Below are positions 1 through 13,897 of a stretch of DNA of 20,219 nt, in pieces. The stretch lies in IMG/VR virus record IMGVR_UViG_3300009159_000425, positions 1 through 20,219 of that record; one strand, 5' to 3'. Numbering within the stretch: the first letter of the stretch is position 1; the number at the start of each line of letters is the position of its first letter. Source of the stretch: a virus. The notes under the pieces are model-generated. The model was not told the origin of the DNA and did no database searches. It worked only from the letters and a program-made list of their open reading frames with translations. The position numbers were made by a program, and so were the translations under genes.

Positions 1-248
1 GTTTTCATTTGTGCGTATTCATTTGGTTTTCTTGATGCATCTAAAGCATCTAAACCTTTACCATATATCATATTAGATATACCTGTAATAATAGCACCAT
101 TTGTAGTTGAATATAAGAACCTATCAATTAAAAACTGAAAGTAGTTATTATCATCACCATATTCAATGTAACCTTGCTTTTTATTTTCTTGTATTTTAGG
201 ACTTGTGTAAGCACTTAAATTTACAATAGAAATATTTGAATTATTCAT
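1..248 (-). CDS. Phage portal protein, N-terminal part (cut by window edge)
   Basis: Reading the minus strand from the ATG at 248 gives 82 codons that stay open to the window edge. The product begins MNNSNISIVNLSAYTSPKI, followed by an acidic YGDDNNYFQFLIDRF segment and then TNGAIITGISNMIYGKGLDA. This order (short leader, SP motif, D/N-rich patch, then a helix with N-x-I-I-x-G-I-x-x-x-I-Y-G-x-G-L) is what I know from portal proteins of Bacteroidota phages. Portals form the dodecameric ring at the capsid vertex through which DNA is packaged. The start overlaps the end of the preceding gene by 8 bases. The rest of the protein lies outside the window, so the family call rests on the N terminus and on its place after the capsid gene. 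Confidence 0.75.
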   Translation of the reverse strand, partial: MNNSNISIVNLSAYTSPKIQENKKQGYIEYGDDNNYFQFLIDRFLYSTTNGAIITGISNMIYGKGLDALDASRKPNEYAQMK

Positions 249-570
249 AAACTATAAAATCATTAGTTGTTTGATTTGCTACGTATTCATCTTTGTTAAT
301 TGTATAATCAGCAATAACTTGATTTGTGCAAAATATTTTGTCTTTATAAACTACATCAGTATTATTTAAAATAGATAACGTATAAAAGTTTCCTTCTTTT
401 AAATCAAATGTAGTTGTTGTGTATAGATAATAACCATCTATATAAAAATCAGATGTTATAGTAGTACTTTCATTTGTCATTTCATTTATTAAAACTATTG
501 ATGTAGCACTATAGGTTCTTGGAATGAATTTCAAAGATTGTTCTTCTACTTGCTCTTTTAAAATTATCAT
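241..570 (-). CDS. Conserved hypothetical phage protein, 109 aa
   Basis: A 109-residue protein with no Cys, no signal peptide and no membrane segment. It looks mostly beta-stranded, with alternating hydrophobic and polar residues throughout and a central FDLKEGNFYTLSIL segment, followed by KIFCTNQ (one Cys near residue 81). It lies between the putative tail tube gene and the portal gene and overlaps the portal start by 8 bases, so it is probably co-translated with the portal. I recall similar small proteins beside the portal in Bacteroidota phages, but I cannot assign a function. A virion connector or minor structural role is inference from position only. A terminator separates it from the upstream gene, and its leader carries the A/T-rich block shared with other late genes. 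Confidence 0.7.
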   Translation of the reverse strand: MIILKEQVEEQSLKFIPRTYSATSIVLINEMTNESTTITSDFYIDGYYLYTTTTFDLKEGNFYTLSILNNTDVVYKDKIFCTNQVIADYTINKDEYVANQTTNDFIVYE

Positions 571-614
571 TATCTTTTTATTTAAAAATAAAAGTATATT
601 AAAATTGTTTTAAA

Positions 615-643
615 ATAAAAAAGGGACACTTAAAGTATCCCTT
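615..643 (-). terminator. Rho-independent terminator after the putative tail tube gene
   Basis: On the minus strand, AAGGGATAC and GTGTCCCTT form a 9-bp stem (one G-U pair) around a TTTAA loop, followed by a T-rich tract. The hairpin lies about 25 bases beyond the stop codon of the gene at 668-1198. Confidence 0.85.
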
Positions 644-667
644 AATTAAAAAACAAAAAAACAATTA

Positions 668-1198
668 TTAATCTGTATAAATAACATTAAAATCATTTAA
701 ACCATTCAACAAGAAGTTTGCTGGTACTGGTTCCATTCCTGTAAGTGTTAATGTATAACCACTTAAATCACCCATAGCTGCACCAGTTACAATAGTTCCA
801 CCTGTTACATCCATTCCGTGTTCTAATCCACAAAAGAAGAAATTACCATTGTTATCTTCAACAACTACTTGTGGTCTACCATAAGCCAAAAGTTTAATTT
901 GTTTATTATCTACAATAGATAATTTTTTCAAAGTCAATGCCAATTCTTGTTGAAAGAATGTAGTTCCATTTTCTCTTGAAGATGTAATTGTTTGAGTAAA
1001 AGATGATGTACCTTTTAATTCATATCTGTAAGTGTTTGGATTTCCAGTTATTTCATCAATAGCATCTGTTTGGTCTCCACTACCATAAACAATAGTGTTA
1101 TAACCTATATCACCCCAATTTACAAAGTAAACTGCTTTTAATCCACCATTGCTGTCCTTGCAAGGTTCTAATCTGCCTAAACTAATATCACAAGCCAT
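668..1198 (-). CDS. Putative major tail tube protein, 176 aa
   Basis: A 176-residue protein starting MACDISLGRLEPCKDSNGG, then LKAVYFVNWG. The middle has a strand-rich SSFTQTITSSRENGTTFFQQ segment, a Lys/Leu stretch and GRPQVVVEDNNGNFFFCGLEHGMDVTGG in two adjoining motifs. It ends with GAAMGDLSGYTLTLTGMEPV. Size, beta content and the closing GDLSGYTLTLTGxE motif fit tail tube subunits, which polymerise into the hollow tube, and similar proteins are known to me from Bacteroidota phages. It lies right after the capsid gene, far from the tape measure. Terminators on both sides (1218-1246 and 615-643) suggest a discrete, abundant transcript. The alternative is another capsid-associated protein. 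The tube call is inference without structure comparison. Confidence 0.6.
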   Translation of the reverse strand: MACDISLGRLEPCKDSNGGLKAVYFVNWGDIGYNTIVYGSGDQTDAIDEITGNPNTYRYELKGTSSFTQTITSSRENGTTFFQQELALTLKKLSIVDNKQIKLLAYGRPQVVVEDNNGNFFFCGLEHGMDVTGGTIVTGAAMGDLSGYTLTLTGMEPVPANFLLNGLNDFNVIYTD

Positions 1199-1217
1199 AT
1201 TTATATATATTTAAAGT

Positions 1218-1246
1218 TAAAAAAAAGGTGGTGTTTTTGCACCACC
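1218..1246 (-). terminator. Strong rho-independent terminator after the major capsid gene
   Basis: On the minus strand, GGTGGTG pairs with CACCACC (7 bp, G+C-rich in an A+T-rich genome) across a short loop and is followed by eight T. It starts about 25 bases past the capsid gene stop codon. Confidence 0.93.
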
Positions 1247-1270
1247 CTTAATTTGATTAATAATTAATTA

Positions 1271-2233
1271 TTAGTTAGCAGCGTTAGTAATTCCGTATGT
1301 AGTAATATCTTCTACAATTCCGTATTGTACACCAGCCGTAAATCTCATTACAACTCTAACATTTTGTGAACCATCAATGTCAGACATATCAATTAATTTC
1401 ACTTCTTGGTTATCAGCTAATAAACCAGTACCAAAATACAAGTTAGATTTTTGAGCAGCAATAGCAACTGTTGGAGCTAAACCATTTGCAACAAATATTT
1501 TAATTCCATCAAAAGAAAGTGAACCATTATTCCACCATTGTGTTCCCATTGCATTAGTACCATTAGCACCTAAACCTGATGCACCAAAACCACCCAAAGC
1601 CCTTACGTATGCACGTGCTGTGGCTTGACTAACGTATAAATACAGGTCTTCTTTTCCATAAAGTGTTGCTGGGATAGCATCAACTAATTTCCCTAATTCA
1701 GCAATAACTGTTGCAGAAGCAGTAATGTTAGTTGAAGTAGCAGCAACTTCTTGAGCAGCTGGTAATCCAGCATCTAAAGTTAACAATCTTGTAAATCCGT
1801 TAAATTCTCCAGCGTTAGCAGTAACACCAGCCCAAATATTTTTTTCTGTTTTATCAGCAACTTTAGCAGCTACGTGAGCTAATAAGAAATCAGCAAATGA
1901 AGGTGGTAAGCTATCAAAAGCTGAATATCCCATTTGAACTGCTTCCCAATCGCTGTGAAAATCTTTCTTGCATAATTGCAAATTTACTTGGAATTCTTCA
2001 GGTTGTAAAATTTTCTCTGTAAGTGTTACAGTTGAAGTTGCATCGAAGTCACAAGTTGCATCTTTTACGATTGCATCAGTAGAAATTTTCTTGATTACTT
2101 CTTTGTATTTTACATTTGGTTTTACTTCAATACCACCATTTTCGATAGTTGAAGCAGAAAGTAAAGCTGCTGAAATATATTTTCCTGCAAACTCACCAGC
2201 ATAGGTTGTTGTAATACTTGTTGTTGTAGCCAT
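1271..2233 (-). CDS. Major capsid protein, 320 aa
   Basis: A 320-residue protein that forms the icosahedral head shell. It has the usual length of small HK97-fold capsid proteins without a fused scaffold. It begins with a Thr/Ser-rich N terminus (MATTTSITTTYAGEFAGKY), has VCDFDATST-like central strands around residues 60-75, a helical domain at about 85-140 (HSDWEAVQMG, LAHVAAKVADKTEKNIWAG), a Gly-rich turn region at about 215-235 (GGFGASGLGANG), and a closing strand-rich stretch with VRVVMRFTAGVQYGI. It is preceded by a scaffold-like gene and protease, as in most head modules, and followed by a strong terminator. The A-rich leader directly before ATG lacks a Shine-Dalgarno sequence. The assignment rests on size, composition and context rather than one diagnostic motif. 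Confidence 0.85.
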   Translation of the reverse strand: MATTTSITTTYAGEFAGKYISAALLSASTIENGGIEVKPNVKYKEVIKKISTDAIVKDATCDFDATSTVTLTEKILQPEEFQVNLQLCKKDFHSDWEAVQMGYSAFDSLPPSFADFLLAHVAAKVADKTEKNIWAGVTANAGEFNGFTRLLTLDAGLPAAQEVAATSTNITASATVIAELGKLVDAIPATLYGKEDLYLYVSQATARAYVRALGGFGASGLGANGTNAMGTQWWNNGSLSFDGIKIFVANGLAPTVAIAAQKSNLYFGTGLLADNQEVKLIDMSDIDGSQNVRVVMRFTAGVQYGIVEDITTYGITNAAN

Positions 2234-2256
2234 TTTTTATTTAATTTTTATTTTTA

Positions 2257-2829
2257 TTATTTGTTTAATTTACTCAATACTACATCAAATGTTGTAGCTT
2301 GTCTTTTTTTAGAATATAAATTCATTTTAACTTCAGTTTTTGCATCTGGATTGTGTGATAAAACTTCAATGTTATCATTTGACAATTCAACCGCTTCTAC
2401 TACTTCAGTTTTTGATAATTTTAATTCAGCAATTTCTGCTCTTAATTTTTCAATTTCTGAAAAGAACATTTCTTTAGTTACACTTTCAACAACTCTTTTT
2501 GGCGTTGCTACCTCAGCAGTCATTTCCATTTCAGCTGGACTTGGTGTTGTTTCTTCATTAACTGGCATTTCTTCTGCTGGAGTTTCAATAGCAGCAATAA
2601 TACCTTCAACATCTACTTTTAACACATTACCATCTTCAAGAATATACTCTCCAACTGGCACCGGTACTTTTTCCTCACCATTTAAAATAAATACAGAAGG
2701 TTTAGTTTCTGTATAATCTCCAACTTCGAATGTGTCTGCTTCAATAACAGTAACACCATCTTGTAATTTCATTTGAGCAAGTTTAACTTCCATACCCAAA
2801 AGTTCTTTAATTTGATTTACTACGTTCAT
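2257..2829 (-). CDS. Scaffold-like capsid assembly protein, 190 aa
   Basis: A 190-residue acidic protein just upstream of the capsid gene. The N-terminal 85 residues look beta-rich and contain a VPVPVGEYILEDGNVLKVD motif, which I recall from proteins at this position in Bacteroidota phages. Residues about 85-110 form a Glu/Pro/Thr-rich linker (AEEMPVNEETTPSPAEMEM). Residues about 117-145 form a charged helix suited to a coiled coil (EIEKLRAEIAELKLSKTE). The C terminus is basic and Leu-rich (VVLSKLNK), as is common in scaffolds whose end helix binds the capsid subunit. Function as an internal scaffold, or a decoration protein carrying the N-terminal beta domain, is inferred from position and layout. 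Confidence 0.6.
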   Translation of the reverse strand: MNVVNQIKELLGMEVKLAQMKLQDGVTVIEADTFEVGDYTETKPSVFILNGEEKVPVPVGEYILEDGNVLKVDVEGIIAAIETPAEEMPVNEETTPSPAEMEMTAEVATPKRVVESVTKEMFFSEIEKLRAEIAELKLSKTEVVEAVELSNDNIEVLSHNPDAKTEVKMNLYSKKRQATTFDVVLSKLNK

Positions 2830-2846
2830 ATTTACTTTTTTATTTA

Positions 2847-3227
2847 TTATCCGTTTCTTAAAGCTATTTTATTACCTTTTAATTTAGTAACATAATAATC
2901 TATATCTTTAGCATAAAGTTTTAATGCTTCACCTTGATTTTTAATTTGTGCAGGTAATTCAATTCCTAAATCTTTTGCTGATTTTAATACATCTTCAAAT
3001 CTTTTATTTGCACTTAATAAAATCTGACCTACTGAATTAAAATCACTTGAAATTTTATTTGCTAATTCATTATAATCAACTACATTTGTTTCTGCTTTAA
3101 AAAAAACATCATTAAGTTTTTGATAATCTTTATTAAAATCATCAACTAAAGCTAATTCAATTCTTTCAGATGCCAATTCTACTTTTTCAAATAACTTATT
3201 ACCAATCTTTGTTACTTCTGGGTTCAT
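2847..3227 (-). CDS. Helical head-module protein of unknown function, 126 aa
   Basis: A 126-residue, Lys- and Glu-rich protein that appears almost wholly alpha-helical, with heptad-like spacing of Leu, Val and Ile through residues 10-110 and a basic C terminus (KLKGNKIALRNG). It has no Cys or Trp and no membrane segment. It lies between the Cys-rich protein and the scaffold-like gene, inside the protease-to-capsid interval. That place would suit a minor scaffold or an internal head protein, but I do not recognise the family. Its leader has the same TTTTTAAATAAAAA-type block as other late genes. Confidence 0.7.
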   Translation of the reverse strand: MNPEVTKIGNKLFEKVELASERIELALVDDFNKDYQKLNDVFFKAETNVVDYNELANKISSDFNSVGQILLSANKRFEDVLKSAKDLGIELPAQIKNQGEALKLYAKDIDYYVTKLKGNKIALRNG

Positions 3228-3275
3228 CTATTTTTTATTTAAAAATTAATACTATTTATATTTGTTATAAATTTG

Positions 3276-3464
3276 CTATCCGTTTGTTCTAACTATTGTT
3301 TTAACTCCATCTACAACTGTTACAGTTGAAGTGCCTTGTGCAACTGTTGAACCAATACCTTGATTTATTAATTCACCTTTGCAACATTCATTTGAATATG
3401 TGCTATCATCACATAAACAACCTCTTTTTCCATCTTTTGGACTTGTGTACTTGTTTTTTCCCAT
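3276..3464 (-). CDS. Small Cys-rich head-module protein, 62 aa
   Basis: A 62-residue protein starting MGKNKYTSPKDGKRGCLCDD. It has four Cys in a compact CLC-x9-CC arrangement, then a Gly/Ser/Thr/Val-rich tail. I recall proteins beginning with this YTSPKDGxRGCLC signature in capsid regions of Bacteroidota phages. The closely paired Cys could bind a metal or form disulfides, which is inference. An in-frame ATG nine codons earlier (3491) would overlap the preceding gene by 23 bases. I chose the ATG at 3464 because the family signature begins there and it sits 4 bases after the preceding stop. Function is unknown; a minor virion protein is the best guess from context. Confidence 0.65.
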   Translation of the reverse strand: MGKNKYTSPKDGKRGCLCDDSTYSNECCKGELINQGIGSTVAQGTSTVTVVDGVKTIVRTNG

Positions 3465-3468
3465 TATT

Positions 3469-3762
3469 TTAGTTATTAAATATTTTACCAATTTTTCCTA
3501 ATTGTTTAATTACATTTTCATTATTATCATAATGCTGTTCAATTTTTAAACTTTTAATCTTGTATATTTTATTTATATTACTTCCTGTTGCATAAACTCT
3601 ACTTACTGGAATACCTAATGCATTTGCTTTGTTAATCATTCCTTGCTTTAAATGCCTTGCTGATATTATATAAACATCATTTCCTTCAGCTAAAAATTTA
3701 GTTGCCATTTCAGTACCTTTTGCAGTACTTAATGTGCCATCATAATCAAAACTAATTTTCAT
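3469..3762 (-). CDS. Small HAD-like phosphatase, 97 aa
   Basis: A 97-residue protein with the HAD-superfamily signature FDYDGTLS at residues 5-12, where the first Asp would be the nucleophile and the second the acid/base. A motif-II-like IISAR lies at about residues 33-37. Lys-containing and Asp-containing stretches near residues 68-80 (KSLKIEQHYDNNENV) could supply motifs III and IV. It lacks room for a cap domain, so it resembles minimal phage HAD proteins. Substrate is unknown. It overlaps the end of the protease gene by 11 bases and precedes the Cys-rich gene, so it is translated with the head-assembly genes. A phosphatase here is not a standard morphogenesis part; a role in end processing during packaging is only a speculation. 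Confidence 0.75.
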   Translation of the reverse strand: MKISFDYDGTLSTAKGTEMATKFLAEGNDVYIISARHLKQGMINKANALGIPVSRVYATGSNINKIYKIKSLKIEQHYDNNENVIKQLGKIGKIFNN

Positions 3763-4345
3763 TTTTAAGAATGATTTGTTTTATCTTTTCAATCAATTCT
3801 TGTTCTGCATCTTGTTGTAGATTTAATTCTGCTTTCTCAGAAAAATATCCTTCAATAGAATAACCTTGATATTTACCTTCTTTAACATCATTCCAAACTT
3901 CATCATTGTCTATTCTTTGAACTACAACCCAAGCACCTTCAACAGCATTTAAATTGTAAATAGCTGATTTATCTTTTTTAACATCTTCAACTATCCAACT
4001 TTCTATTGTATAAACACCTTCTGTTTTCTTGTCGTGTTCTAATGTTGAATTATGTATTTTAAGTTTCTTTAAATATAGTTCTGATGCTTTTCTAACTGTT
4101 TCTTTTGAAAAACGAATGTTATATTCATAATCACCATTTCTTCTATAAATATCTTTTTCAGGTATTAAAGCTAAACCTATAACTATTCTTTTATCTTCAT
4201 CAATAGTTTTAAGTTCAACTTTGTGTTCATTTAGTGCAACCCAATTTTCTTCTATGGCTGGAAATTTAACTAAACTAATGGCATCAATTCCATCTTGAAT
4301 ATTTTCTTCGTCAATATCTAAATAAATAGTTTCTAACTTCTTCAT
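3752..4345 (-). CDS. Prohead protease, XkdF-like, 197 aa
   Basis: A 197-residue protein that matches the layout of XkdF-like phage serine proteases, which trim scaffold and capsid proteins during head maturation. Residues 53-65 form a core strand (RIVIGLALIPEKD). KIHNSTLEHD at 96-105 holds the candidate catalytic His residues (98 and 104), VYTIESWIVED follows at 111-121, then GAWVVVQRID at 137-146. YQGYSIEGYF at 159-168 carries the candidate nucleophile Ser163. The C-terminal 25 residues are a charged helix. It is the first gene of the head module, upstream of scaffold and capsid as usual. The precise catalytic residue assignment is by pattern, not alignment. Confidence 0.8.
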   Translation of the reverse strand: MKKLETIYLDIDEENIQDGIDAISLVKFPAIEENWVALNEHKVELKTIDEDKRIVIGLALIPEKDIYRRNGDYEYNIRFSKETVRKASELYLKKLKIHNSTLEHDKKTEGVYTIESWIVEDVKKDKSAIYNLNAVEGAWVVVQRIDNDEVWNDVKEGKYQGYSIEGYFSEKAELNLQQDAEQELIEKIKQIILKNEN

Positions 4346-4433: not shown

Positions 4434-6446
4434 CTATCCTAAACTTGCGTTACTAACAATGTTTCTATTTAATGATTGTGCTGATGTTACATTTTGTGCA
4501 ACTACATAAGCTTGTATTGGCGATTGATTTTTATTGTTAATACTTTCTGCTATTTGATTAGCACCACCTTGACCAACTACATTGAAACTTGGAGCAGCAG
4601 CACCACCACCAGAAGGTACGCCAGCACTACCACCACTACCACCAGGCACTTTTACTGACATAATTTTTTGTACATTGGCAATTCCTTGAGCAGCAACAAT
4701 AGCAGTAGATGCAATTTTAACAGCCATATCTACAACAGGGTTGCCCATAGATTTAGCAGCCCAAACTTCAGAAATACCTTTATAAGTATTAATAGTTGCA
4801 GCAGCAATCGCTAATGCTTTTCCAGCAGCAGTTTTTTCTCCAGCTATTTTAGATAATCCTTCTAATGCATTAGACACTGCTCCCATTTGAGCCATTTGTG
4901 CTGACTTTTCTGCTTCACTTATTTTAATTCTTGCTTCAGCATTTTCTTTTAGTAATTTTGTACGTTCTTCTTCTGATATATTAGTAGCTTCAGTAATTAA
5001 TCTTTCTTGTTCTGTTATTGCTTCTAATTTTGCTTCAAAAGCTAAAGCATCATTTTCAATTATTAATTGTTGTTTTTCTAATTTTTTATCAAATCTATAA
5101 GTATCTATTTCATCTTGTGCAGTTGTAATTTGATTTTCTATTTCTTGCTTTTTAGCAGCATATTCATTTTCAGCATCTATTCTTGCTTGTGTTCCAGCTT
5201 TAGTTGTTTCAATTACATTTTGTAATCTTTCTAATTCTTGTGTTTTAGCAAATTCTAATGCTGATTTTTTAGCCAATAAAATAGCTTCTTCATCTTTTAA
5301 TCTTTCAGCATCAAATTGCTTTTGGTCTATTGCTAATTGTGTTTCAGCTTCTTGTTTAGTTTTTGTTAAATCTAATAGTTCTTTATTGAGTGCTAAATCA
5401 TTTGCTTTTTGTTCTGACCTTAAACCCTCAATTTGTGCTAATACACCTTCTCTATTTGCTAAAGCATTTGTTACAGCAACTTGGTTTTCTATACTTTTAT
5501 TTTGTTGTAATGTAGCATTGGCAGCAGCTATTTGAGCATCAGCAGCTCCAAGCATAGCTTTTTCTTGATTGTTTAAAACATTTTTTAAATCATCATTTGC
5601 TTTTATTCTATCAGTAACACTATTTCTTTCTTCATCTCTAACCTGTCTTAATTTTTCTGCTTGTCTATCATATTGTTCAACTAACCTTGCTTGATTTGCT
5701 TCTGCTAATTTTGCATTATTTTGTAATTGTGTATTTGCTTTAGCTTGTTCATAAGCACCTTTAATTGATATTTTACTAACACCATCTATTGTTCCTTCAA
5801 CAACTGCTCCTACTTCACTTATAGCTGAACCAATATTATTTGCAACTTTTTTACCAGCTTCTAATGCATCTTTACCAACCTCAACAATATTATCTTTTGT
5901 AGTTGAAATTCTTTTATTTAATTTTTCTATTGTTTTTTCATCACCATCACCAAAGAAACTTTCTTCCCAAGCAAGTTTTGCTTCATCAATAGCTAAAGAT
6001 ATTGCATAGAAACTTAATTTTAAAGGTGCTAAACTTATTGTAATTAAACCACTTATAGTATTTGTTAATCCTTTAAACCCATTACTTGATTGATTTACTT
6101 TTTCAACAACAGAAACAACTACATCAACAACTTTAGTAAATACATTTGTTACAGTTCCCATAGCAGTAGCCATAGTATCAGCAACTTTTTGATTGCTCAT
6201 AAATATTTCTTTTAAAGTACCAAGAGCACTAATCACAAGACCAATACCCATAGCTTTAATAGCTAAACCAGCACCTTTAAAACCTTCGGCTAAAGTCTTT
6301 GTATTTTTCTCAACTTCTTTTGTACTTTTACCAACATCCTGTACTACATCAGTTGTTTTTTCTAAATTTTTATTTAAAGATTTAATTTCTTTAGTTACAT
6401 TATCAATGTTACTATTTACCTTTAAATTTATTTCCTTGTTTTCCAT
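4434..6446 (-). CDS. Tail tape measure protein, 670 aa
   Basis: A 670-residue protein that sets tail length and fills the tube before DNA ejection. Residues 1-55 are polar and helical, 57-80 are hydrophobic (FKGAGLAIKAMGIGLVISAL), and about 230-510 form long Lys/Glu/Ala/Gln-rich coiled-coil helices. A second hydrophobic Ala-rich stretch follows at about 535-590 (GKALAIAAATINTYKGI, STAIVAAQGIANVQ). The Gly/Ser/Ala-rich tail ends in an Asn/Gln-rich segment. This mix of coiled coil plus two membrane-like stretches is typical. The final segment (AYVVAQNVTSAQSLNR) resembles the C-terminal ends of tape measures in Bacteroidota phages. The gene is the longest helical one in the window and overlaps the end of the 49-aa gene by 19 bases. 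Its length implies a tail of roughly 100 nm by the usual 1.5 angstrom per residue rule. Confidence 0.88.
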   Translation of the reverse strand: MENKEINLKVNSNIDNVTKEIKSLNKNLEKTTDVVQDVGKSTKEVEKNTKTLAEGFKGAGLAIKAMGIGLVISALGTLKEIFMSNQKVADTMATAMGTVTNVFTKVVDVVVSVVEKVNQSSNGFKGLTNTISGLITISLAPLKLSFYAISLAIDEAKLAWEESFFGDGDEKTIEKLNKRISTTKDNIVEVGKDALEAGKKVANNIGSAISEVGAVVEGTIDGVSKISIKGAYEQAKANTQLQNNAKLAEANQARLVEQYDRQAEKLRQVRDEERNSVTDRIKANDDLKNVLNNQEKAMLGAADAQIAAANATLQQNKSIENQVAVTNALANREGVLAQIEGLRSEQKANDLALNKELLDLTKTKQEAETQLAIDQKQFDAERLKDEEAILLAKKSALEFAKTQELERLQNVIETTKAGTQARIDAENEYAAKKQEIENQITTAQDEIDTYRFDKKLEKQQLIIENDALAFEAKLEAITEQERLITEATNISEEERTKLLKENAEARIKISEAEKSAQMAQMGAVSNALEGLSKIAGEKTAAGKALAIAAATINTYKGISEVWAAKSMGNPVVDMAVKIASTAIVAAQGIANVQKIMSVKVPGGSGGSAGVPSGGGAAAPSFNVVGQGGANQIAESINNKNQSPIQAYVVAQNVTSAQSLNRNIVSNASLG

Positions 6447-10203: not shown

Positions 10204-10767
10204 TTATTTATTTGTTATTGTGTAATCTATTAACATTTCTATGTCGTCTCCAAACGCTTTTATTAAATCTGTATCTATGTATTTCTTATATCCATCTTCA
10301 AATGGTTTTGTAAAAAATAAACTTGGTTTAATACCTCTTGCCCAAATGTTCTTTGCTATTATTATTCCTATTGATTTATAATTGCCTTTTTTATATTTTC
10401 CTTTTTCATCACGTAATCTTATATTTCTTTGTTTTGCCCAAACTTCTATTAATGATGATGGTGGTCTTTTAGTTTTAAATTTAAATCTGCTGTTTGGTGC
10501 TTGTTGCCCTTTTATCTTTGCGTTCTTTGATACTTGACTTGGGTCTGCACCTTTAACTCCTTCATCTTGATAAAAGCCATAATCAGGCATAGAAAACCCT
10601 AATAAGAAATAATCATTTTCAGATAGTATTTCACCTTTGATATTATTATAAAGTTGTTTAGAAACATTCTTATTGCCTTTAGACAAATTACTTCTTGCTT
10701 GTTGAATAACATATTTTTTATATGCTTCTAAAACTTCTTTTGTACTTGTTAAATTATTAGCATTCAT
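10204..10767 (-). CDS. HK97 gp10-like neck or tail-completion protein, 187 aa
   Basis: A 187-residue basic protein. Residues 1-50 are helical, then GFSMPDYGFYQDEGVKGADP at about 58-77 resembles the 'Y..yqeeGt.g' loop of the gp10-like family. FKFKTKRPPSSLIEVWAKQR follows, and GIKPSLFFTKPFEDGYKKY lies near the C terminus, matching the family's usual 'p.p.fl.p.f..' element. Such proteins join head to tail or complete the tail end. It overlaps the preceding terminator-like gene by 11 bases and precedes the distal tail protein by one base, as in a normal tail module. The exact neck role is inferred. Confidence 0.6.
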   Translation of the reverse strand: MNANNLTSTKEVLEAYKKYVIQQARSNLSKGNKNVSKQLYNNIKGEILSENDYFLLGFSMPDYGFYQDEGVKGADPSQVSKNAKIKGQQAPNSRFKFKTKRPPSSLIEVWAKQRNIRLRDEKGKYKKGNYKSIGIIIAKNIWARGIKPSLFFTKPFEDGYKKYIDTDLIKAFGDDIEMLIDYTITNK

Positions 10768-11224
10768 TATCGCAACTTGTCATTTCATTAGCAACCATTA
10801 CATCAAATGTAACTGTCCATCCAGCTATTCTATTTTCAAATCTATCTGTAAATGGTTCACAATTAGGTGTACCTTGTAATTGGTATAAATCATCATATAA
10901 AGTTCCACGTCTTAATACTTCTAATAATCTATTAATAACCATTAATTGAGTATGCAATACATCTTGTTCATTATCATTTGTTACAAACTGGTCTATTTGT
11001 TCTGTCTTGCTAAAATCTACAACATCCATACATAATACTGATATATTAAATATCCAAGTGTTACCATTGTATTGAGCATTGTTTACAATTATATGCGATA
11101 AAGGAAATATAGTTTGTTTGTTTAAATCAACTTCAAATATATCACCAGCTGATACTGTGTTTACAAATATATCTTTATATAGTTGGTCTTTTATTGCAGT
11201 TGTTATTTGGTAAAATCCTTTCAT
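10757..11224 (-). CDS. Putative tail terminator or neck protein, 155 aa
   Basis: A 155-residue acidic protein of alpha/beta composition. It has an N-terminal helix (YQITTAIKDQLYKD), a FPLSHIIVNNAQ segment, two long strands around VNNAQYNGNTWIFNISVLCMDVVD, a helix with LMVINRLLEVLRRG, and a closing strand GWTVTFDVMVANEM followed by a short Cys-ending tail. Helix-strand-strand-helix-strand with a 'gw.v.f.v.v.n' end is the usual shape of siphovirus tail terminator proteins, which cap the tube. Its start codon overlaps the TAA of the -1 reading frame of the preceding gene (TAATG at 11222-11226). Function is from pattern and place only. Confidence 0.55.
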   Translation of the reverse strand: MKGFYQITTAIKDQLYKDIFVNTVSAGDIFEVDLNKQTIFPLSHIIVNNAQYNGNTWIFNISVLCMDVVDFSKTEQIDQFVTNDNEQDVLHTQLMVINRLLEVLRRGTLYDDLYQLQGTPNCEPFTDRFENRIAGWTVTFDVMVANEMTSCDNEC

Positions 11225-11963
11225 TATTTACTTCTTATTAATTCAGTTTCTATTTGGTTCTTTTCTTTCTCAAATGTTAAATATGTTAATGCAACTGATA
11301 ATCTAAGTTTGGAAATATCGTCAAATCTTCTAACGTCTCCTTGAGCAATAGCATAGAATGATGAATACCAACCCCATTTACTTCCAAATTGTGATTGTTT
11401 ACTATATTCTGAAATTCCCGATTGTTCTCCAAAAAGTGTATCGTAGACTTCAACAATTCGTTGCCTAAATTGTAAAAAAAAACCACAGCACCTAATACAA
11501 CATCAACAGGTGCAAACTTCATAGCATCACAATATGTATAGCTTCCGTTATATTCTTCTATTTGATATTTATCTTTTAATTTCTTTGTTACTGGTCTATA
11601 CAATACTGCCATAGCATTATGCATCATATCCCAATCACTTATGTATTTATCTAAGTCTGTATATTCACCTAATGTAATTTCATCAAGGTTAGTTATAAAA
11701 CCAAACTCAGTATTACCTAATTTAAATGTTTTTTTAAGTTCATACTTTTGTGCAAATAAATTTGATAGGTTAGTTGTTATTTCGTTTACATCTTTATAAC
11801 TTATTTTAGCAGCATCTTTTAAATCTATGTTGCAAAATATTTCAATCATTTTATGTTGCATAAATTCACCATCAGGATTATCTTTAGCAATAGATAAAAA
11901 CTTTTGATATTGTTCTAATGTTATTTCTGATAAACTTGTTGGTATTGTAATCTGTAACTTCAT
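11224..11963 (-). CDS. Tail assembly chaperone-like fusion made by -1 frameshift, 246 aa
   Basis: The gene starts at 11963 and in frame 0 reads 163 codons up to VVFF at a run of nine T (minus strand, 11482-11474). Shifting back one base there gives 83 further residues without a stop, including FGSKWGWYSSFYAIAQGDVRRF and LTYLTFEKEKNQIETELIRSK. The sequence looks protein-like, with Trp, charged residues and a helical C terminus. The -1 frame ends with TAA at 11224-11226, overlapping the next ATG as TAATG. The heptamer T TTT TTT is in the correct phase for canonical -1 slippage. Siphovirus tail assembly chaperones use -1 shifts to make a longer form that binds the tape measure. The alternative is a one-base homopolymer sequencing error. 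Confidence 0.75.
11286..11963 (-). CDS. Tail assembly chaperone-like, unshifted form, 225 aa
   Basis: The unshifted frame encodes 225 residues. The N-terminal part is a MKLQITIPTSLSEITLEQYQ opening, followed by a helical region, then FGFITNLDEITLGEYTDLDK near residues 87-106, and MMHNAMAVLYRPV near 113-125. I recall this series from tail chaperone-like genes of Bacteroidota phages. After the T-run the frame stays open for 62 codons (YNLGNELLKSTIHFLENNRE and on) and stops at 11286, leaving a 62-base gap before the next gene, unlike its neighbours. Both frames are open downstream of the slip, so the short and long forms would share 163 residues. The normal frame may be the abundant product. Confidence 0.6.
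   Translation of the reverse strand: MKLQITIPTSLSEITLEQYQKFLSIAKDNPDGEFMQHKMIEIFCNIDLKDAAKISYKDVNEITTNLSNLFAQKYELKKTFKLGNTEFGFITNLDEITLGEYTDLDKYISDWDMMHNAMAVLYRPVTKKLKDKYQIEEYNGSYTYCDAMKFAPVDVVLGAVVFFYNLGNELLKSTIHFLENNREFQNIVNNHNLEVNGVGIHHSMLLLKETLEDLTIFPNLDYQLH
11474..11482 (-). other. Slippery T9 sequence for -1 ribosomal frameshifting
   Basis: Minus-strand sequence G-GTT-TTT-TTT-TAC in frame 0 contains the canonical slippery heptamer T TTT TTT. Slipping back one base gives TTA CAA TTT and opens the frame that ends at the next gene's start. No Shine-Dalgarno stimulator was seen; I did not fold the downstream RNA. Confidence 0.7.
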
Positions 11964-12584: not shown

Positions 12585-12731
12585 CTACGAAAGGTAAGCA
12601 CTTGCTACATTATACATCTGTTGCATCTTTTTAATTTCACCTACATTTCTTGGTAAATTAATTTGAACTTCAACACCTTTAACGTGATGTATATAACATT
12701 GTATTGCTGCTATTATTTGTCCGTAACTCAT
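12585..12731 (-). CDS. Small protein coupled to the large terminase, 48 aa
   Basis: A 48-residue ORF starting on the terminase stop codon (TAATG at 12729-12733). The product begins MSYGQIIAAIQCYIHHVKG, then VEVQINLPRNVGEIKKMQQM and a short tail ending in YLS. One helix-strand-helix unit seems likely. The one-base overlap with the terminase gene, the same join used elsewhere in this genome, implies that it is translated by reinitiation. No family recognised. Being made with the terminase makes a packaging accessory role conceivable. Confidence 0.65.
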   Translation of the reverse strand: MSYGQIIAAIQCYIHHVKGVEVQINLPRNVGEIKKMQQMYNVASAYLS

Positions 12732-13897
12732 TAGTATATAAAATAATTACCTTTGTGTGGGTTTTCTAATTGACTTGTTATTGCATAACGCATAGCATCT
12801 ATTGCGTGGTTATATGCATCTATTGGTCTATTCATTTTAATTCCTGTTTTATCAGTTTGCCAAATGTAGTTTCTTAATTCATTTATTAAGTTCTTGCTTC
12901 TTGATGTTACGTAAACTTTGTTTTGATTAATTAAATTAAGACCGAATAAGATACTATCTTTTCCTTTTGTAACTGGTAATACATTATGACCATAACTATT
13001 TAATTCAGCTATTGATTTTGGTTCAGCACTATCAGCGTAAACAAAATTGTTTACATTATTTGCTTTTAATAGATTTGATATTTCACTATTCAATAAACCT
13101 TTCTTATAAATCACTTCATCAAATATATAAGCATCATTATATTTGTACATTGTTACTAAACTTGTTGGGTCATTACTATAACCAAAGTCCATTCCGTAAC
13201 ATAATATTCTTGCATCTTGTGGTAAATCTATTTCTTGCCAGTCTGTAATACATACACCTTCTAAACTACCTGTTTGACCTAAACCATAAACTTGCCACCA
13301 GTTTGCCCAATATGTAGATGTTAATGCTTTTACTTTTGCTGCTTCTATTTCTTGAACTATTGTTTCTGATAATGCTTCATTATCTAAATAAGTCAATGTA
13401 ATAAAATCAACATCTGATTGTGTTAGTATTTCTTTATCAACCCAAAATGCTGATGTAGGATTATAATCTAACCATATATCACCTGATGTTCTAATTGCTA
13501 ACTGATAATAACTTTCGAAATCTATATTGTTACACTCATTAACATAAAGTATATTTCTTCTTGCACCTCTTAATTTATCAGGCTGGTCAACACTAAAAAA
13601 CTCAATATAACTTCCATTTGTAAATGTATATTTTAAAGTAGACTTATTAAACTGTGCATCATTATACCTACCTAATGCCATTATAATCTTTAAGAAGTCT
13701 TTTAATGCACCTCTACGTAAATGTGGTATGCTTTCAGATACAACACTTATTTCTAAATTAGGTTCTTTAATTGCTTTGTCAATTAGTAAAGGCAGAATAC
13801 CAAATGTTTTACCAGCTGATGTTCCACCTCTAATAACTTTAATACGTTGCTTTAAACGCAATAACTTTCTGATTGCAGTAGTTAATATAAACTCCAT
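12731..13897 (-). CDS. terL: Large terminase subunit, 388 aa
   Basis: The ATP-driven DNA-packaging motor and endonuclease. RGGTSAGKT at residues 23-31 is the Walker A motif of the ATPase. ILYVNE at 116-121 is Walker B with catalytic Glu121. SGDIWLDYNPTS at 138-149 is the coupling region. The nuclease domain starts near GMDFGYSNDPTS (D237), with further acidic metal ligands at YADSAEPKS (D289) and at AYNHAIDAMRYA (D367). The length is at the small end of the terminase range but all motifs are present, so it looks functional. The preceding gene is a small-subunit candidate 11 bases upstream. This phage-type terminase with 'RGGTSAGKT' is one I associate with Bacteroidota phages. Confidence 0.97.
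   Translation of the reverse strand: MEFILTTAIRKLLRLKQRIKVIRGGTSAGKTFGILPLLIDKAIKEPNLEISVVSESIPHLRRGALKDFLKIIMALGRYNDAQFNKSTLKYTFTNGSYIEFFSVDQPDKLRGARRNILYVNECNNIDFESYYQLAIRTSGDIWLDYNPTSAFWVDKEILTQSDVDFITLTYLDNEALSETIVQEIEAAKVKALTSTYWANWWQVYGLGQTGSLEGVCITDWQEIDLPQDARILCYGMDFGYSNDPTSLVTMYKYNDAYIFDEVIYKKGLLNSEISNLLKANNVNNFVYADSAEPKSIAELNSYGHNVLPVTKGKDSILFGLNLINQNKVYVTSRSKNLINELRNYIWQTDKTGIKMNRPIDAYNHAIDAMRYAITSQLENPHKGNYFIY

Follow-up and report, generated by a model that had tools for sequence, protein, structure and literature searches.

In tail assembly chaperone pairs of the lambda G/GT type, G is in excess over GT, is absent from virions, and binds the tape-measure and tube proteins. For -1 slippage on the ribosome, a bare heptamer of seven Ts is enough and a C is tolerated at its last place, and some known -1 sites need no stimulating structure. 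The frameshift in tail assembly chaperone genes is conserved, as for lambda gpG/gpGT (Xu, Hendrix and Duda 2004, as cited in PMC5009743). RNA polymerase can also slip in vivo at runs of 9 A or T (PMC5009743; PMC1088944), and transcriptional slippage at 9 A or 9 T was described for Thermus dnaX and Shigella mxiE (Baranov 2005, PMC1088944).

Here, a locus with features of both was analyzed in a virus record of 20,219 bases, the whole of which is called the window. On the comparative evidence below, one gene very probably yields two proteins, a majority 225-aa protein (G) and a minority 246-aa fusion (G-T), through a -1 change of frame at a run of nine Ts (T9).

Organization of the locus

The two frames, the T run, and the downstream gene all lie on the minus strand, which the preliminary description of this DNA did not give (Table 1). 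The T9 run is preceded by GTGG and followed by ACAATTTAGG, and it is the sole A or T run of at least 9 within the window. Frame-0 codons 161 to 164 read GTT TTT TTT TAC across it, confirming the earlier claim that the run stands in phase for T TTT TTT. An in-frame TGA at 11505, just before the run, closes the -1 frame upstream. Past the run, this frame is open for 83 sense codons, as had been described; its stop overlaps the start of the next gene, and frame 0 ends about 62 bases short of that start, also in agreement. The TAATG join, said to recur at four other gene pairs, was found as an exact one-base overlap at only two (9108 and 16020), and others overlap by 4 to 16 bases (list of ORFs of at least 60 aa). 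The predicted fusion of 246 aa consists of 163 shared residues and the 83-residue T part.

Table 1. Features of the G/T locus and its neighbors in the window
Feature	Position	Strand	Remarks
Frame-0 ORF (G)	11286..11963	-	225 aa, ATG at 11963 to TAA at 11288-11286; phrog_32199, a family without assigned function; conserved in ~280 loci
T9 run, slip site	11474..11482	-	T TTT TTT in phase with frame 0
-1 frame (T part)	11224..11475	-	83 aa, TAA at 11226-11224; no ATG, GTG, or TTG start
Dual-coding stretch	11289..11475	-	~62 codons in frame 0 and -1, from codon randomization and conserved frame-0 residues
Next gene	10757..11224	-	155 aa, phrog_30964; ATG overlaps the -1 frame stop, not the frame-0 stop
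Tape-measure protein gene	4434..6446	-	phrog_3336, E 1e-16; downstream in the same tail module, four genes between
Large terminase gene	12731..13897	-	upstream of G; Terminase_3C, Terminase_3

Conservation of the T run in relatives

Viral contigs, bacterial genomes, and phage records were scanned for relatives. The gene was present in many uncultivated phages, in Nonlabens phages P12024L/S, in Bacteroidota assemblies (one assembly of this set being binned as Epsilonproteobacteria), and in the isolate genome of Flagellimonas onchidii. Among 214 distinct loci, the run was T9 in 208 and T10 in 6, and the T part occupied the -1 frame in 305 of 308 loci, with truncation accounting for the remaining 3. 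In 69 further distinct contexts, with identity to the Nonlabens query down to ~25%, the run was T9 or T10 throughout; because this set partly overlaps the first, the total is given as ~280 distinct relatives, which are not phylogenetically independent, so that the counts carry shared ancestry. No run shorter than 9 occurred among the distinct relatives with the site. A scan with one member, L345, as the query recovered only L345 itself and one fragment.

The run was kept in three codon phases, namely, the usual GTT TTT TTT TAC, ATG TTT TTT TTT CTG in L315, and GCT TTT TTT TTG in L414 (a relative at E 4e-13, in a locus of 44% GC). The -1 part measured 81 to 87 codons across relatives; the frame-0 tail past the run was mostly 53 to 65 codons and at most 25 in the Nonlabens group. 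In 170 of 211 loci, the start of the next gene overlapped or just preceded the -1 frame stop and not the frame-0 stop.

Homopolymers are error-prone, and it could be supposed that the gene really has 8 or 10 Ts in a single frame, disrupted here by a sequencing or assembly error or by decay. The relatives refute this: a single frame with 10 Ts or a loss of the -1 frame was absent from the ~280 loci except in contig L128, which has T10 and a fused frame, whereas T9 with both frames open recurred in many samples (~280 distinct loci), in two finished isolate phages, and in an isolate bacterial genome, and the frame-0 tail is itself conserved. Thus, sequencing error is ruled out by the relatives, and an error or decay of any kind has a negligible chance of explaining the locus. 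The hidden -1 product put forward in the preliminary description is strongly supported, T9 or T10 and the -1 frame being kept across these loci. L128 (about 3215 to 3235) is the only relative in which T10 fuses both frames; its near kin L126, L127, and L129 have T9, and its T10 may be either an assembly slip or a true variant.

Selection on both frames and on the run

Codon randomization was used, in which the peptide of one frame was fixed and codons were drawn at random from the codon usage of the window. In the window, the -1 frame stayed open in 0 of 2000 randomizations that preserved the frame-0 peptide, and the openness of frame 0 given the -1 peptide had p=0.003. The same was done for 29 divergent members (<72% identity), with one codon table and related sequences: the probability of frame 0 being open as far as observed was <0.025 in 26 of the 29, and that of the -1 frame was <0.01 in 27. 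The frame-0 tail also had conserved residues of its own, G199 and L214 being invariant in 48 sequences. Since the openness of each frame is unexplained by the other, ~55 to 65 codons are selected in two frames. Neither frame thus arises as a by-product of the other.

For the run itself, expected numbers were obtained by synonymous shuffling of the other coding sequence in these loci, 671 kb in all. Runs of at least T9 were observed 0 times against ~6 expected, T8 3 times against 23, and A9 3 times against 35. At the slip site, one T/C position is synonymous in both frames, and C was found there in 2 of 208 cases, both after a T10 run; elsewhere in the overlap, such doubly synonymous sites had C in 125 of 508. 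Judged by these counts, the T run is under selection at a length of 9 or 10. Against this reading, part of the T run is dictated by the hydrophobic and aromatic residues encoded there.

The T part could also be a separate protein, made from its own start or by termination and reinitiation at the frame-0 end, as the annotation of the Nonlabens phages implies, where the end of T is entered as gp41 (55 aa) with a start overlapping the frame-0 stop. However, the -1 frame of the window has no ATG, GTG, or TTG, so an independent start is ruled out there; 159 of 211 relatives likewise have none, and the conserved T sequence starts right at the run. In general, a separate T is improbable. An immediate +1 stop past the run, considered as a fail-safe, was given no weight, because the conserved residues of the two frames already dictate it.

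With a conserved run, two selected frames, and no start codon for T, a -1 transition that gives G and G-T is well supported. Most products would be the 225-aa frame-0 protein, and a minority would switch frame at T9 and end as the 246-aa fusion. Since the T stop and the start of the next gene overlap, ribosomes shifted to the -1 frame may feed that gene as well, and its translation may thus be coupled to them.

Ribosome or RNA polymerase as the slipping machine

One hallmark of each of two mechanisms was found at the site: a T TTT TTT heptamer in phase, as for -1 ribosomal frameshifting, and a conserved run of at least 9 A or T with a conserved shifted frame, as for transcriptional slippage. 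The "frameshift" of the preliminary description is well supported as a frame change at T9, but its ribosomal sense is just one of two mechanisms that fit the run.

If RNA polymerase slips, as it does in Shigella mxiE or Thermus dnaX, transcripts with an extra U at T9 would lead straight into the T frame. Every distinct relative has an unbroken run of at least 9, which occurs in three codon phases, and long T runs are avoided in the other genes of these loci; C is avoided at the last heptamer position despite its synonymy in both frames and although it leaves a legal ribosomal heptamer. However, the amino acid constraint by itself explains a large share of the length, ribosomes may simply slip more readily on U UUU UUU than on U UUU UUC, and the scarcity of long runs in other genes might also stem from slippage during replication. 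In addition, the tail-gene frameshifts described so far are ribosomal (PMC5009743).

Frameshifting by the ribosome, as in lambda G/GT, would take place on U UUU UUU and agrees with the canonical heptamer being in phase in every listed locus. It is a known device of tail genes (PMC5009743), and 6 to 7% was reported for two tail-chaperone genes (PMC3711429). Nevertheless, a heptamer of 7 Ts would be enough, yet every run is at least 9, and no conserved stimulating structure was found among the 29 members. This absence of a conserved downstream RNA structure, which also fits polymerase slippage, was judged from pseudoknot-free folding of 50 to 120 nt past the run, where no consistent excess appeared; z-scores for the first 50 nt were near 0 in nearly all 29 members. 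L147 alone among the sampled members folded strongly right past the run (z of -5.4).

Overall, polymerase slippage has close to an even chance of being the mechanism, and ribosomal frameshifting is a serious contender at somewhat under even. RNA polymerase is therefore about as likely as the ribosome to be the slipping machine and is slightly preferred because the T run is uninterrupted.

Relation to the tail module

The order terminase, G/T, genes of 155, 187, 364, and 843 aa, and tape measure was kept in Nonlabens phage P12024L, and the order from G/T onward was kept in the Flagellimonas locus. The Nonlabens counterpart of the 187-aa gene was weakly similar to "tail completion or Neck1." From this conserved gene order, the G/T pair belongs to the tail module. 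In the window, the pair was not found directly upstream of the tape-measure gene and after a major tail protein gene; it is placed after the terminase gene, with four genes (~4.8 kb) separating it from the tape measure. The arrangement of head and tail genes is unusual, in that protease, capsid-like, and portal genes follow the tape measure (positions 1 to 4345 of the window).

No named tail-chaperone family was matched significantly in profile and fold searches. Sequence searches of Pfam, PHROG, and PDB with both parts returned nothing informative beyond phrog_32199, Pfam matching neither part; in relatives, the best match to phrog_166 ("tail protein") had an E of 0.001. The model of G was fair (mean pLDDT of 79), and its fold matches were proteins of uncultured phages and Nonlabens, the only one named a tail assembly chaperone being weak (E 0.69). 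The model of T was all helical and less sure (pLDDT of 70). Four fold-library proteins matched both models, which hints, as far as the models go, at in-frame fusions.

One fold relative, R9VW65, was equated by protein length with gp10 of Flavobacterium phage 6H (NC_021867.1, 10352-10927). This gene has T TTT TTC at its end, and its -1 frame meets TAG at once, which is neutral for the hypothesis. After the TAG, an unannotated ORF follows in the -1 frame, in the gap to 10047.

The interpretation in the preliminary description is upheld in part, and "tail chaperone" is a putative name within it. The role is plausible from the architecture, two overlapping frames joined at the sequence level by a frame change at a slippery site, and from the conserved tail module. 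Membership in the lambda type is not established, because the tape-measure gene is not adjacent and no profile or fold match to the family was significant. In such a role, G and the fusion would act like lambda G/GT, holding the tape-measure protein as chaperones and recruiting subunits of the tail tube.

Comparison with known systems

Tentatively, we propose that a large group of Bacteroidota phages, almost none of them cultivated, would set the ratio of two tail-morphogenesis proteins by polymerase slippage at T9 and not by ribosomal frameshifting, with ~60 codons in two selected frames. No prior report for this phage group was found in the literature searched, most subscription journals lying outside it; "tail assembly chaperone" and "transcriptional slippage" were joined only in a review, a prediction tool, and a genome survey. 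The comparative case is strong for a hidden product that annotation misses throughout a phage group, and the stretch under two-frame selection is long. The case also serves as a natural experiment on whether polymerase slippage can take the place of ribosomal frameshifting in phages as a means of fixing a protein ratio, and the cultured members (Nonlabens phages P12024L/S and the Flagellimonas onchidii genome) make it testable.

Gp40 and gp41 of Nonlabens phages P12024L/S are the same gene pair, with the same T9, the same gene order, and phrog_32199. Unlike in the window, their frame-0 tail is only 25 codons, and they are annotated as two separate hypothetical proteins; they are better read as G and G-T. 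The annotated 55-aa gp41 (NC_018272.1, 24473-24640) is the C-terminal part of T, and its length fits phrog_38404.

Like Thermus dnaX and Shigella mxiE, the locus combines a run of 9, at the slippage threshold, with two conserved frames and avoidance of such runs in other genes; here, however, the gene belongs to a phage structural module. With lambda gpG/gpGT, it shares two products with a common N-terminal part, a second frame at -1, the tail module, and, as proposed here, a minority fusion. It differs in that the slip site is a T9 run, frame 0 continues for ~55 to 65 selected codons past the slip (at most 25 in the Nonlabens group), and the gene follows the terminase gene, four genes before the tape measure. 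The frameshift in tail genes has long been known; what is new here is a variant of the lambda G/GT arrangement with a T9 site and a long overlap selected in both frames.
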